Positions 6,581 to 12,495 are shown, counted from the first letter of the stretch. The stretch is 39,327 nucleotides of DNA from Candidatus Zhuqueibacterota bacterium (GCA_016934825.1 JAFGSB010000087.1:1-39327), one strand, 5' to 3'. Notes: generated by a model not told the origin, from the letters alone. Made by a program: numbers and translations.

Positions 6581-7930
6581 ATGAAACATTTGGTTACACT
6601 TTTTACTTTTATAATGATAACATCCGGTATGATCTTTGCCCAGGGGGCGGGCAACGCGCTTGAATTTAATGGAACCGATTATGTGAATTGCGGCAGCAGC
6701 AGCAGTTTGAAGCCGAGCGATGTTTTGACGATAGAAGCCTGGGTAAGACCGGATGATGATTCTCATGCGGGCGGTGGTGACGGATTAGTTGTTTCCGATG
6801 GCGACGGCAGTGCGACCGGTGTAAATCTGGATCTGCAAACATCTCAGGTACCTTATTGTATTATCAATACTGCTGATGGACTAAAATCAGTTTCCGGCAA
6901 TGCTATATCTCCTGCAACCTGGGAGCACGTGGCCTTTGTTTTTTCTCCTGTCGGTTTATTTCTATACCAGAATGGAAGTCTGGTTGATTCGGAGCCGTTC
7001 CCGTCAGGTTCAAATTCTATTGTAACAACGGCCAATAATTTTTATATTGGTTCAAAGGGAAGTGGAACCGATCGACGATTTTTGGGCGATATCGATGAAG
7101 TGCGTGTCTGGCACGCGGCATTGACTCAGCCCAATATCAATGCCTGGAAAAGTAAACCCGTTACGTCGTCACACCCGAACTGGGGTAATATGGTATCCTA
7201 TTACAAGTTTGATGAGGATAAAGTTGGTCAAACAACCGGAACGTGTGTTGACAGTAAAGGCTCAAACGATGGCACGAACAGCGGCGCTTTATGGTTTACC
7301 AATAATGATCTTCCACTGCCCGTTGAGCTGACTTCCTTCAAAGTAAATCCGGCGCCAGATGGAAGCGGTATTGAACTGCATTGGATAACTGCGAGCGAAC
7401 TGGACAACCTGGGTTTCGAGATCATCCGGCGGGAAAATATCGGTGAAACCTGGCAGGTCATTGCCAGCTACAAAACGTACCCGGAGCTTGAAGGACAGGG
7501 CACGGTGACTTACGAAACCCATTATAATTATACGGATCGAAACGTCGATAAAAACAGGGCATATCAATACAGTATTGTCAGTGTGAATGTGAATGGTGAT
7601 AGGGATTACAGTCAGGCTGTGGAAATTTCTCTCTCCGGAGTTACGGTTACGGATTTTAAACTGTACCCGGCGTATCCTAATCCCTTCAATCCATCAACGG
7701 TTATTTCATATTTTTTGAAAAACGAATGCGAGGTCAATCTTCGAGTTGTCGATATTCATGGCAGAGCAGTTCGTACATTGCGTGATGGTCTTTTGCATAA
7801 TTCCGGTTTTTATTCGGTGACCTGGGATGGTTTTAGTGACGAAGGCCTGCGCATATCCAGCGGCGTCTATTTTATTATTTTGGAGGCCGGTCGATTTTCC
7901 GGTTCTCAAAAGGTTTTATTTTTGAAATAA
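6581..7930 (+). CDS. secreted LamG/concanavalin-like protein with T9SS sorting domain
   Basis: A clear signal peptide (MKHLVTLFTFIMITSGMIFAQ) opens this 449-residue protein. Residues about 22-195 form a LamG-like jelly-roll domain, with NALEFNGTDYVNCG, LTIEAWVRPDD and FLGDIDEVRVWHAAL as typical strands; such domains bind glycans or proteins. A middle region (about 250-360, starting PLPVELTSFKV) is the linker or fibronectin-like domain usually found before sorting signals. The last 80 residues, from YPAYPNPFNPSTVISYF to the end, are a type IX secretion sorting domain, so the protein should be exported and fixed to the surface. The ligand is unknown. An excellent ribosome site (CCGGAGGA) supports the start. 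Confidence 0.85.
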   Translation: MKHLVTLFTFIMITSGMIFAQGAGNALEFNGTDYVNCGSSSSLKPSDVLTIEAWVRPDDDSHAGGGDGLVVSDGDGSATGVNLDLQTSQVPYCIINTADGLKSVSGNAISPATWEHVAFVFSPVGLFLYQNGSLVDSEPFPSGSNSIVTTANNFYIGSKGSGTDRRFLGDIDEVRVWHAALTQPNINAWKSKPVTSSHPNWGNMVSYYKFDEDKVGQTTGTCVDSKGSNDGTNSGALWFTNNDLPLPVELTSFKVNPAPDGSGIELHWITASELDNLGFEIIRRENIGETWQVIASYKTYPELEGQGTVTYETHYNYTDRNVDKNRAYQYSIVSVNVNGDRDYSQAVEISLSGVTVTDFKLYPAYPNPFNPSTVISYFLKNECEVNLRVVDIHGRAVRTLRDGLLHNSGFYSVTWDGFSDEGLRISSGVYFIILEAGRFSGSQKVLFLK

Positions 7931-8250: not shown

Positions 8251-11200
8251 ATGATGTGCTTAAGGCTTTTGAAGTGCTTGTTTTTTCTATTGTTAATTCC
8301 ATTAATGATAACAGCACAAACAATTGATCAAGCTTTTTCCGCATTATCGCAAACCGAAATCGCTAAACTTGATCCTCGTTTTCAGAAAATTATTGTGGGA
8401 GAATACACCCAAAAAGAGAAAATTTTATCAGGTACGGGAATTGAGACTGTTGGTATCAATTCAGCGGGTGATAATATTTACGATGCGGTGGTTTATACCA
8501 CGAATCCGGAAGAACTTGTTTCAACAGGAATACCCGTTAATACAATACTCCCTCAATTTGTAACCGTACGGGTTACAATGCGTGAGTTGTTAACCCTGGC
8601 TCAACTGCAAAATGTACAGTATATAGACCCGGGTCTTTTACAATACCCGTTAAATGATGTCACGGAAGGTGTTACCGGAGCTGATTTGCTGCATGCCGGT
8701 TACCTTAATGGTACTGTTTACAAGGGACAGGATGTTATTTTGTGTATTATTGATACCGGAATTGATTGGGAGCATAAAGATTTTCGCGACCCGGCGGATG
8801 ATACGCAAAGCAGAATATTATATATCTGGGATCAAACCTTAACACCTCAGGGAGCAGAGAGTTCTCCCGCCGAAACCGATTTGAATTACGGTGTGGAATA
8901 TACCCGGGCGCACATTGAAGATGAAATTGACGGTTCTCCGGCCGGATTTGTGCGTGAACAGGATACAAATGGTCATGGAACACACGTAACCGGAACAGCC
9001 GCCGGTAACGGAGCATCATTCACAAATTTGAAATATGCAGGCATGGCGCCGCAGGCAGATATAATCGTCGTTAAAGCGGGCAACGGTTCATTTACGGAGT
9101 CGAACATCATTAATGCTTTGACTTACGCACAGGAAAAAGCAACCGCTTTCGGAAAATCCGTTGTTGTGAATATGAGTTTGGGTTCCAATGCGGGTCCGCA
9201 TGACGGAACCGACGCCAAAAGCCAGGCAATTGATACTTTTACGGGTTCAGGTAGAATTGTTGTTGTATCCGCAGGAAATAGCGGCGATGATTTAATTCAT
9301 ACAATGGGGGGAGTTGGTGCCGGTAATTCTGTCGAGATTACATTCACAGTCCCTGATTATACTCCGGCCGGTGACGTTAATAATGATGATTTGAGTATTG
9401 ATATCTGGTTCGATGGTAACAATGATATGACCGCTCAGGTTATTTCACCAAACGGGTATTCCGTATCACAAACGTCCGGAGGATGGGTGGAAAATAGTAC
9501 GAACGACGGTACGGTAAAGATTGAGAATTATGTATTTTTATCTAACAGCGATCGTTATATCCGTGTCAATATTTGGGATGATATTGCCATCTTACCGCCG
9601 GCGGAGGGAATTTGGAAATTAAAATTGACCAATAATTCCGGTGCGAATGTAAATTACCATGGCTGGTTATTTGATCAGAGTATCGGTACGGCCCCTTCGA
9701 TTATATCTTTATCAAACAGTGATTCCCATTATACGCTCAGTAATAGCGCCGTCAGTGCAATTATTGTCGGATCATATGTTCATCGGTGGTATTGGCCGGA
9801 TTATTTGAATAACTATTGGTGGGGCGGATCACCGGATCTTTCAGACAATTTGTCCTCATTTAGCAGCCGGGGGCCAACCCGTGATGAACAGGACAGACCG
9901 GATATTGTCGCTCCGGGTGATAAAATCGTTTCCAGTTTATCGCAGTATGCAAATCCCGGCACCAGCGCAATATTACCGGGTCAGAAACATCAGACCATGC
10001 AGGGTACCAGTATGTCGTCGCCTGTAGTGGCCGGTGCTGTTGCGCTTTTATTACAGGAAAATTCCAACCTGGACGACGGGGATGTTAAATCTCTGATGAT
10101 TGATAATGCCGATACGGACAGCTATACGGGACTTGTATGGAATTCCATGTGGGGGAACGGTAAACTGAATATTTTCGGAGCCATGAGCGACGCTATGGGA
10201 ACAAGCCCGATAGTTGCCTGGGAGACAATGATCTATGACCAGTGGGGTGCGAACAGTTACATGGATATTGGTTCGGCGGGTTTTCAAAAGATAGCCGTAA
10301 AATTTACGCCCTCATTATCCGGAATAGTGTCCGGTTTCTTTTTTCAAACCTACATCAATAATACACTAACCGCTCCTTTAAATGTGGAAGTATGGTCCGA
10401 TAACAGCGGTAAACCGGGTACAAAATTATCCGGAAGCAGTACAATTGCGATTGAAAAAGATAAAATATTAAAAAATAGTAATACTTTTGTGAATTTGCTG
10501 GCCGGAAATATTTTTGTTAACTCCGGCACTAATTATCATATAGTAATGTATCCTTCGAATACGGGTGAGGTCATTTCAATCAGTGTGGAAAATAATGTGT
10601 CTTCTGATAATCGTTCAACATATTTTAACAGCTCAAACTGGTATTCATTGTCCACAGATTTTCGCATACGACCGGTAGTAGTTGAGAATGCCGGATTAAA
10701 GTTATTAGTAAAAGTTATGTTGCAAGGTCCGTTTAATTCTGTGGATCGAACAATGGATACGAATTTAACTCTGCCATTGACATCTCCATATTCTGAAGAT
10801 CCCGTAACAATTGCCAGCATGCCGGAGAATATTGTTGACTGGGTACTGGTTCAATTGAGGACCACCACAACCGGTACAGCAATAGTCTCAAAAAGCGGGT
10901 TATTACAAAGTGATGGTAAAGTCGTTTCTGCTGATGGAAGATTATATATAGAGTTAAAAGCGCCTGCCGGTGATTATTATGTTGTAGTTAAACACAGGAA
11001 TCATTTATCCGTTATGAGTAATGATCCGTATAATTTGGATTCCGCATCACCTGTAACCTGTGATTTAATTCACGGAGATGGTTCTCATATTCACGGGACA
11101 AATGGCGCAATAGAACTGTTAACCGGATTAAATGTCTGGGGAATGTGGAGTGGTGATGTTAATAAAACCGGTATTATCGATGGTGATGACAGAAACGCCA

Positions 11201-11322
11201 CCTGGAACAATCGGACATTGACCGGATATCAGATGTCGGATTGTGATCTGAACGGACGAGTTGGCGCTTCCGACAGAAATTTGACATGGAACAACAGAAC
11301 CATACAAACTCAAGTTCCGTAA
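8251..11322 (+). CDS. secreted subtilisin-like (S8) protease with dockerin-like C-terminus
   Basis: This is a 1023-residue secreted protease. After a signal peptide (MMCLRLLKCLFFLLLIPLMI) and a propeptide-like region comes the S8 catalytic domain with Asp168 (CIIDTGIDW), His242 (NGHGTHVTG), oxyanion Asn343 (SAGNSG) and Ser587 (GTSMSSPVVAGA). All are intact. A beta-rich jelly-roll-like segment (about 352-492) is inserted between the oxyanion Asn and the catalytic Ser, as in Csp-type subtilases. Residues about 640-960 look like beta-sandwich domains. The end carries two dockerin-like Ca-binding repeats (near 968-988 and 997-1017), each DxNxxG or DxDxxG followed by DRN..WNNRT. There is no type IX sorting domain. 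ATG at 8251 or 8254 could start it, both after GGGAG. A cohesin-like secreted protein follows 24 bases later. Confidence 0.9.
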   Translation: MMCLRLLKCLFFLLLIPLMITAQTIDQAFSALSQTEIAKLDPRFQKIIVGEYTQKEKILSGTGIETVGINSAGDNIYDAVVYTTNPEELVSTGIPVNTILPQFVTVRVTMRELLTLAQLQNVQYIDPGLLQYPLNDVTEGVTGADLLHAGYLNGTVYKGQDVILCIIDTGIDWEHKDFRDPADDTQSRILYIWDQTLTPQGAESSPAETDLNYGVEYTRAHIEDEIDGSPAGFVREQDTNGHGTHVTGTAAGNGASFTNLKYAGMAPQADIIVVKAGNGSFTESNIINALTYAQEKATAFGKSVVVNMSLGSNAGPHDGTDAKSQAIDTFTGSGRIVVVSAGNSGDDLIHTMGGVGAGNSVEITFTVPDYTPAGDVNNDDLSIDIWFDGNNDMTAQVISPNGYSVSQTSGGWVENSTNDGTVKIENYVFLSNSDRYIRVNIWDDIAILPPAEGIWKLKLTNNSGANVNYHGWLFDQSIGTAPSIISLSNSDSHYTLSNSAVSAIIVGSYVHRWYWPDYLNNYWWGGSPDLSDNLSSFSSRGPTRDEQDRPDIVAPGDKIVSSLSQYANPGTSAILPGQKHQTMQGTSMSSPVVAGAVALLLQENSNLDDGDVKSLMIDNADTDSYTGLVWNSMWGNGKLNIFGAMSDAMGTSPIVAWETMIYDQWGANSYMDIGSAGFQKIAVKFTPSLSGIVSGFFFQTYINNTLTAPLNVEVWSDNSGKPGTKLSGSSTIAIEKDKILKNSNTFVNLLAGNIFVNSGTNYHIVMYPSNTGEVISISVENNVSSDNRSTYFNSSNWYSLSTDFRIRPVVVENAGLKLLVKVMLQGPFNSVDRTMDTNLTLPLTSPYSEDPVTIASMPENIVDWVLVQLRTTTTGTAIVSKSGLLQSDGKVVSADGRLYIELKAPAGDYYVVVKHRNHLSVMSNDPYNLDSASPVTCDLIHGDGSHIHGTNGAIELLTGLNVWGMWSGDVNKTGIIDGDDRNATWNNRTLTGYQMSDCDLNGRVGASDRNLTWNNRTIQTQVP

Positions 11323-11346
11323 TCAGGCTTTTTTAAGGAGTATGAC

Positions 11347-12495
11347 ATGAAAAAAATTATTTTTACTGTCTTTGTTTATACGTTTATTATAGCCGTTACT
11401 GCCGGAGTTACAGCAGTATCTTATACATTGAGGGTTGTCGATCAACAAGCCGACGGTACCAATTTCACTTTTAAACTCTATCTGCAAAGTACGAACGTCG
11501 ATTTTTATCTCGCGGATTCTGATATATATTTAAGTTTTAACAGTGAAAATTTTTCCTCGCCGGTTTTAACAAAAATTGAAAATGGAGATTTATATTCTTC
11601 AGCTTACACCGTATCACCTGCGATAACCGGTGATAAAATAGCCATCTCAATTAAAGGTCCAGCTCCGACCTCGGATACGGAATTCCAGAACGGCGCTTAT
11701 CTGCTTTCTACGGACAGTCCCGGTACCTATATTGGAAAATTCCAAATCTCCGGTATCAATAACCCTGCTGGAACAGCCGGGCTGGCATGGTATTACCCGG
11801 GTACAAGCGGAACGGACCTTTTCTATTTTGGCTGTCAGGATCCATGGCCCACGTTTCGTTCTACAACATACGCAAATGAAGATCCGGCTAATGCGGCGTT
11901 GCCTGTTAATATCGCGGGATTGTCCGCCGTGTTGACAGATAATAATTATGTCGTGATAAAATGGACAACAAAATCGGAAATTCGTAATCTGGGTTTTAAT
12001 GTTTTGCGAAGCACGTCCGACAACGGCCCCTGGTACAAATTAAATTCCGAACTGATTAAAGGCGCCGGTACCACAGTAAATGAAAACCAATATGAATACC
12101 TTGATAAGGTGCCCAGGGAAAACGGCATCTATTTTTATAAAATCGAACAAATTGATACCGACGGTAAAATATCCTATTTTGGTCCTGTCCAGTTGGATGT
12201 GGGCTCAACGATACCCAAATCATTTTCCTTACAGCAAAATTATCCCAATCCATTCAACCCTTTTACCAATATTATTTATGCGTTGCCCGAAGAATCGGAT
12301 GTTCGTATAAGGATATTTAATATGCGCGGTGAACTGGTTAATGTTCTGGTCAATCAAAAACAGAATGCAGGAACATACAAGCTCACCTGGGACGGGACAT
12401 CGGAAAATGGACATGTTTTGTCATCCGGTTTATATTTTATCAAGATCGATGCGGGTAAATTTAGTGATATAAAAAAGATGATATTTGCCAAATAG
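11347..12495 (+). CDS. secreted cohesin-like protein with T9SS sorting domain
   Basis: The 382-residue protein has an N-terminal signal peptide (FTVFVYTFIIAVTAGVTA). Residues about 24-180 are a beta-rich domain whose strands (FTFKLYLQST, DSDIYLSFNSENF, YIGKFQISGI, GLAWYYPGTSG) resemble the cohesin / surface adhesin jelly roll; this is my reading and is unproven. A fibronectin-like linker (about 190-285) and a full type IX sorting domain (SFSLQQNYPNPFNPFTN to the end) follow. AAGGAG lies 8-13 bases before the start, and the gene sits 24 bases after the dockerin-bearing subtilase, so they are almost certainly co-transcribed. It could anchor the protease at the cell surface. Confidence 0.78.
   Translation: MKKIIFTVFVYTFIIAVTAGVTAVSYTLRVVDQQADGTNFTFKLYLQSTNVDFYLADSDIYLSFNSENFSSPVLTKIENGDLYSSAYTVSPAITGDKIAISIKGPAPTSDTEFQNGAYLLSTDSPGTYIGKFQISGINNPAGTAGLAWYYPGTSGTDLFYFGCQDPWPTFRSTTYANEDPANAALPVNIAGLSAVLTDNNYVVIKWTTKSEIRNLGFNVLRSTSDNGPWYKLNSELIKGAGTTVNENQYEYLDKVPRENGIYFYKIEQIDTDGKISYFGPVQLDVGSTIPKSFSLQQNYPNPFNPFTNIIYALPEESDVRIRIFNMRGELVNVLVNQKQNAGTYKLTWDGTSENGHVLSSGLYFIKIDAGKFSDIKKMIFAK

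Follow-up and report, generated by a model that had tools for sequence, protein, structure and literature searches.

Most of what is known about cohesin–dockerin assembly comes from clostridial cellulosomes, whose enzymes, peptidases included, carry a C-terminal dockerin on their catalytic domain and assemble by the dozen on a common scaffoldin. In the clostridial type II complexes CipA–SdbA and ScaA–ScaB, the dockerin sits on a scaffoldin: an X-module directly precedes a C-terminal two-repeat dockerin, and the partner is a cohesin protein of the cell surface, with S-layer or cell-wall anchoring. Here we describe two adjacent genes from Candidatus Zhuqueibacterota bacterium, located on a stretch of 39,327 nucleotides (GCA_016934825.1, JAFGSB010000087.1:1-39327; hereafter the window), which encode a secreted subtilase (peptidase S8) with a C-terminal X-dockerin tail and an anchor protein with a divergent cohesin-like domain and a sorting domain of the type IX secretion system (T9SS). 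We infer with high confidence that, at the cell surface, protease and anchor fit together as a matched plug and socket, with binding that is probably calcium dependent.

The window protease is like the clostridial cellulosome enzymes in being a catalytic domain with a C-terminal dockerin, but it has an X-module that those enzymes lack and an anchor of its own. With the type II complexes the pair shares the module order at the dockerin end and a cell-surface cohesin protein as partner, and it is their structures to which the model of the window tail is closest. Unlike them, it is Gram-negative, uses a type IX sorting domain for anchoring, has a single-cohesin anchor, carries its dockerin on an enzyme, and belongs to a family that is too distant for Pfam and is divided into many pair-specific subtypes. 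In Candidatus Stygibacter (Cloacimonadota), a cellulosome-like complex was proposed from sequence, with extracellular S8 and C25 peptidases bearing C-terminal dockerins and a cohesin protein anchored by a T9SS C-terminal sorting domain (CTD) (PMC8542988). The dockerin-ended S8 peptidase and the T9SS-anchored cohesin protein recur in the window pair; a scaffoldin of 3,755 aa, in which InterPro finds tandem cohesins and carbohydrate-binding modules (CBMs), is Stygibacter's own (PMC8542988), whereas the system described here uses anchors with a single cohesin that Pfam does not detect, together with X-dockerin tails, matched pairs of adjacent genes and chains of adaptors, and extends over several phyla. 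Among open-licence papers, we found no description of the X-dockerin tail family, of single-cohesin anchors or of matched pairs.

The protease gene (positions 8251–11322, + strand; an open reading frame [ORF] of 1,023 aa) and the anchor gene (11347–12495, + strand; an ORF of 382 aa) lie in a common frame with a gap of 24 bases, at the positions and spacing given in an original prediction made from the sequence alone. A ribosome-binding site, AAGGAG (11335–11340, +), stands a few bases 5' of the anchor gene's ATG, and in a pattern scan that was otherwise at background, the interval separating the genes shows no + strand site resembling a terminator. The protease begins with a signal peptide recognized by eye (MMCLRLLKCLFFLLLIPLMITAQ; 8251–8319, +), followed by a subtilase catalytic domain (PF00082 by hmmscan, E 8.6e-49; residues 159–637, 8725–10161, +) in which the D/H/S motifs IIDTGID, NGHGTH and GTSMSSP are legible. 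Its last approximately 206 residues (818–1023) form a conserved tail, of which the loci we fetched contain 119 genes. The first part of this tail, overlooked by the original prediction, is an X-like beta module (residues 818–966, 10702–11148, +; delimited by homologue conservation, AlphaFold2 and Foldseek), for which a Pfam scan of the tails returned no family. The second is a dockerin of the WNNRT subtype (residues 967–1023, 11149–11319, +; AlphaFold2, Foldseek, profile and ligand conservation). As the prediction had stated, it contains two calcium-binding repeats, whose loops are assigned from sequence and ligand statistics: DVNKTGIIDGDD (residues 969–980, 11155–11190, +) and DCDLNGRVGASD (residues 997–1008, 11239–11274, +). 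A helix sequence of the DRNxTWNNRT type follows each of these EF-hand-like loops, and the D/N ligands at loop positions 1, 3, 5 and 12 are kept across 70 distinct relative tails. At non-ligand positions, repeats 1 and 2 are 55% identical within a tail and 17% identical between tails (permutation maximum 22%); by analogy with type I dockerins, such symmetry would be expected of a dockerin with two equivalent binding orientations.

Structural comparison places the tail next to the type II complexes. The AlphaFold2 model of the last 206 residues (10702–11319; predicted local distance difference test [pLDDT] 96.2, predicted template modelling score [pTM] 0.92) has helices at tail positions 161–169 and 189–197, and its ten best Foldseek matches in the PDB are all type II X-dockerin chains (E 1.5e-5 to 4.5e-4, prob 1.0; among them 4wi0_B at E 1.5e-5, 4u3s_B, 2b59_B, 5g5d_B, 4fl4, 3kcp_A, 5k39_B and 5m0y_B), originating from CipA/CipB of C. 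thermocellum and ScaA of A. cellulolyticus. Template modelling (TM) scores by target range from 0.32 to 0.63, and from 0.55 to 0.63 where the chain is an X-dockerin alone. The profile of the tail family also reaches solved structures (2vn5_B, E 0.006; the CipA X-dockerin 2b59_B, E 0.0065; and 3kcp_A), the CipA matches (2b59_B and 3kcp_A) spanning the boundary between X-module and dockerin. The window tail has no match to Pfam Dockerin_1; among 25 homologues of the tail, 8 match that model at E≤1, the lowest value being 1.2e-5. As modeled, the protease end is an X-module plus dockerin of type II-like form. We rejected the tail as a candidate sorting domain: no CTD family matches the protease at E≤1, in agreement with the original prediction, and the dockerin is the end of the protein.

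The anchor comprises a signal peptide (recognized by eye), a divergent cohesin domain (residues 26–163, 11422–11835, +; hidden Markov model of 20 relatives, and Foldseek), a linker domain, and the full type A sorting domain that the prediction had reported (residues 299–379, 12241–12483, +; TIGR04183 E 6.7e-13, PF18962 E 8.1e-12). With its signal peptide, a type A CTD and the translocon component SprA (TIGR04189) encoded in its own genome, it qualifies as T9SS type A cargo; SprA occurs in all 82 genomes of the phylum that we searched, and is therefore necessary background with no discriminating value. The beta domain, modeled with a pLDDT of about 83 in a fused two-protein model, was expected by the original prediction to be cohesin-like, and nine of its ten best structural matches are indeed cohesins (E 3.2e-4 to 3.4e-3, prob 1.0; CaCohA2 6kgf_C at E 3.2e-4, C. 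perfringens modules, 2vo8, 2jh2 and CipA 1aoh); the remaining match, a CipA fragment, includes an X-dockerin as well. The profile of the cohesin family gives a weak match in the PDB (6kgc_A, E 0.083). Since a Pfam match is a criterion of detection and not of structure, we refer to a divergent cohesin-like domain, and regard the predicted fold as good, not proven.

One might instead read the X-dockerin tail as a secretion or surface signal, with the neighbor's cohesin-like domain binding a glycan or some other ligand and the two genes adjacent only because both products are extracellular. The CBM3 fold is akin to that of cohesins, and chains of CBM3 do appear lower in the list of structural matches; the top matches, however, are cohesins and not CBMs, and on that ranking we rejected the idea that the domain is solely a CBM. 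Of the phylum's genomes, six contain tails without a detectable cohesin, which would also suit a free-standing signal. We consider this account very unlikely in light of the genomic evidence that follows.

Recurrence of the pair was examined in two directions. In a first set of loci, fetched via the tail and scanned with a cohesin profile that takes the window protein as its seed, nearly all of the 37 cohesin genes lie directly after a tail gene, and the others either head a chain or border the edge of a locus. Because this set was picked through the tail, the fair test is the reverse search, in which the cohesin profile alone was run against the 82 genomes of the phylum: a tail gene lies directly upstream in 25 of 30 fetched loci, and X-dockerin tails occur in 27 of the 28 cohesin-bearing genomes (both 27, cohesin only 1, tail only 6, neither 48; Fisher p 8e-15, a test that is not fully independent, as some of the 82 genomes had supplied profile rows). 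The recurrence of the pair, which the original prediction had proposed as a check, is not coincidence. The X-dockerin/cohesin family came to light only through such relatives; single-sequence searches of the source genome with the dockerin or the cohesin return almost nothing outside the window.

The sequences of dockerin and adjacent cohesin vary together strongly. Across 46 non-redundant adjacent pairs (the analysis was also run earlier on 28 pairs; only alignment rows readable as one in-frame stretch were retained in the fused alignments), dockerin and cohesin distances are correlated given the X-module (partial Mantel r 0.62; none of 5000 permutations as high, maximum 0.15), and the nearest neighbors of dockerin and cohesin agree in 23 of 46 cases, where 1.0 is expected. 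For X-module and cohesin in the same pairs, the value is only 0.08. A covariation that is independent of the X-module speaks against the tail as a mere signal, as does the natural exchange of dockerin types among orthologous proteases. Orthologues of the window protease that are 44–46% identical bear different dockerins: WNNRT in the window and in genome G080, WNNRN in G001, DDKNDxW at locus L044, and DYxxW in G019. Window-type cohesins are present in both G001 and G080; in the latter, the closest cohesin (46% identical) shares a contig with two WNNRT tails, standing directly before one and approximately 8 kb from that of the protease orthologue. The protease of the L044 genome has no cohesin beside it, but another site in that genome encodes a DDKND-type cohesin that bears a sorting domain. 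The dockerin type of orthologous proteases follows the cohesin type of the genome. When class was predicted for the L044 genome and five more in which a tail is not beside a known cohesin, the predicted cohesin class was found in two of two cases for DDKND and three of four for WNNR; five further genomes gave no detectable cohesin of the window family.

A different objection is that the window tail binds some other cohesin of the genome, such as one visible to Pfam, and that the neighboring gene serves another client. Other contigs of the source genome do give eight Pfam Cohesin and eleven Dockerin_1 matches at a loose cut-off, and in other genomes tails can lie far from their matching cohesins. 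The source genome, however, has just two family tails and as many family cohesins, arranged as two adjacent pairs (the window and contig C73) that differ in subtype, so that each tail stands beside its own partner; and the window cohesin and WNNR dockerin match in subtype just as do pairs in unrelated lineages (G001, L022, L029 and L030). We judge a distant partner to be highly improbable.

Several observations weigh against the plug-and-socket reading. Pfam Cohesin (PF00963) matches neither the window domain nor 19 relatives, and the cohesin fold match is moderate, with TM scores by target of about 0.5. A co-fold with the stop read through was assessed by its summary scores (pTM 0.57), which give no view of an interface. 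Genome G149 has WNNR tails for which the matching cohesin was not found, and 5 of 17 genomes have tails and no cohesin detectable by the cohesin profile. Sequence relatedness can inflate Mantel statistics; shared operon descent should couple the X-module as well, and the uncoupled X-module control thus argues against such inflation.

Taken as a working mechanism, the protease would be synthesized with a signal peptide at one end and the X-module and dockerin at its C-terminus; the anchor would bear a signal peptide of its own, a subtype-matched cohesin and a type IX sorting domain that would take it through the T9SS and fix it to the outer surface. The protease dockerin would bind the anchor cohesin, presumably with calcium, either in the periplasm (co-export through the T9SS) or outside the cell (capture after export). 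A dockerin so held would allow a protease without a sorting signal of its own to reach the surface. The suggestion in the original prediction that the partner could anchor or co-export the protease gains support from the cohesin-like predicted fold and from adjacency and co-occurrence in many genomes. Its description of a module dedicated to proteolysis holds in the source genome, where both tail proteins contain a subtilase motif, but not across the system, whose clients include lyases, amylases, C10 peptidases and FG-GAP proteins. Where a cellulosome has a multi-cohesin scaffoldin and many enzymes, the window anchor has one cohesin; the pair works like a minimal cellulosome anchor and is not a cellulosome.

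The window pair represents the simplest, 1:1 case of a wider system. Among 55 tail-bearing clients scanned, 12 are subtilases, 8 are FG-GAP proteins, 5 have a rhamnogalacturonan lyase domain, 2 are C10 peptidases and 2 are amylases, with single instances of many others, and a genome may hold up to 24 tails with few cohesins (G019). Some cohesin proteins end in a tail of their own, and the gene after each encodes a further cohesin, until a protein with a sorting domain closes the series (L026/L035, L088 and L094); adaptors that carry both a cohesin and a tail, directly before another cohesin gene, again fit poorly with the tail as a secretion signal. In order-level relatives, a three-gene set is conserved (L179 4747–8222, L180 5048–8461, L181 4444–7770 and L182 325–3861), consisting of a small DYxxW-dockerin protein, an adaptor of approximately 400 aa with a SEFRLxVSxN domain plus X-dockerin, and a cohesin anchor with a sorting domain. 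In eight further adaptor-like proteins, Pfam itself gives a cohesin match, in three of them above the curated cut-off. Judging by gene order and sequence class, this looks like an assembly of clients, adaptors and anchors.

Matched pairs are found again in many uncultured bacteria of Bacteroidota-related groups, far outside the setting of cellulosomes that degrade cellulose, in a divergent version of cohesin–dockerin assembly that domain libraries do not see and that uses single-cohesin, T9SS-anchored sockets of many mutually distinct subtypes (Bacteroidota, Ignavibacteria, Kapabacteria, KSB1, Calditrichota and Cloacimonadota). More tentatively, and with the odds somewhat against it, T9SS bacteria of several phyla may share a surface docking code, in which matched X-dockerin/cohesin subtypes assemble enzymes, adaptors and anchors, and tagged enzymes ride a CTD-bearing cohesin through the type IX translocon. 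The system provides a possible account of those secreted enzymes in the listed groups that have no T9SS sorting domain, a way to predict which enzyme belongs on which anchor, and a source of many candidate orthogonal binding pairs, and it makes piggyback export through the T9SS directly testable.

Some further loci depart from the simple pair. The chain at L035 869–9592 consists of four genes, for a tail protein of 1402 aa, two proteins that have both a cohesin and a tail, and a cohesin protein of 718 aa; every tail is of a different subtype, and the last protein has no recognized sorting domain. At L090 1145–12330, five genes in a row end with the X-module, the match showing no dockerin after it; they may represent tail variants without a recognizable dockerin or frames that end early; G077 has in-frame stops at the same place. 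Three Saprospiraceae genomes (G150, G152 and G155) contain 15–29 family cohesins each (L198, L195, L200, L209 and L216–L218), several nearest to the WNNR class and many away from tails, in what is apparently a large expansion.

Just upstream of the pair, at window positions 6581–7930, a gene encodes a LamG-like secreted protein that weakly matches a T9SS sorting domain; nothing indicates that it belongs to the pair. The source genome also contains a second, Pfam-visible dockerin/cohesin set without the X-module tail, including an ORF that ends in a canonical dockerin and is subtilase-like by eye (L010; G000:C57, about 9544–11184) and cohesin ORFs whose ends resemble T9SS sorting domains (L001 on C43, L008 on C11, L002/L016 on C3 and L003 on C106).

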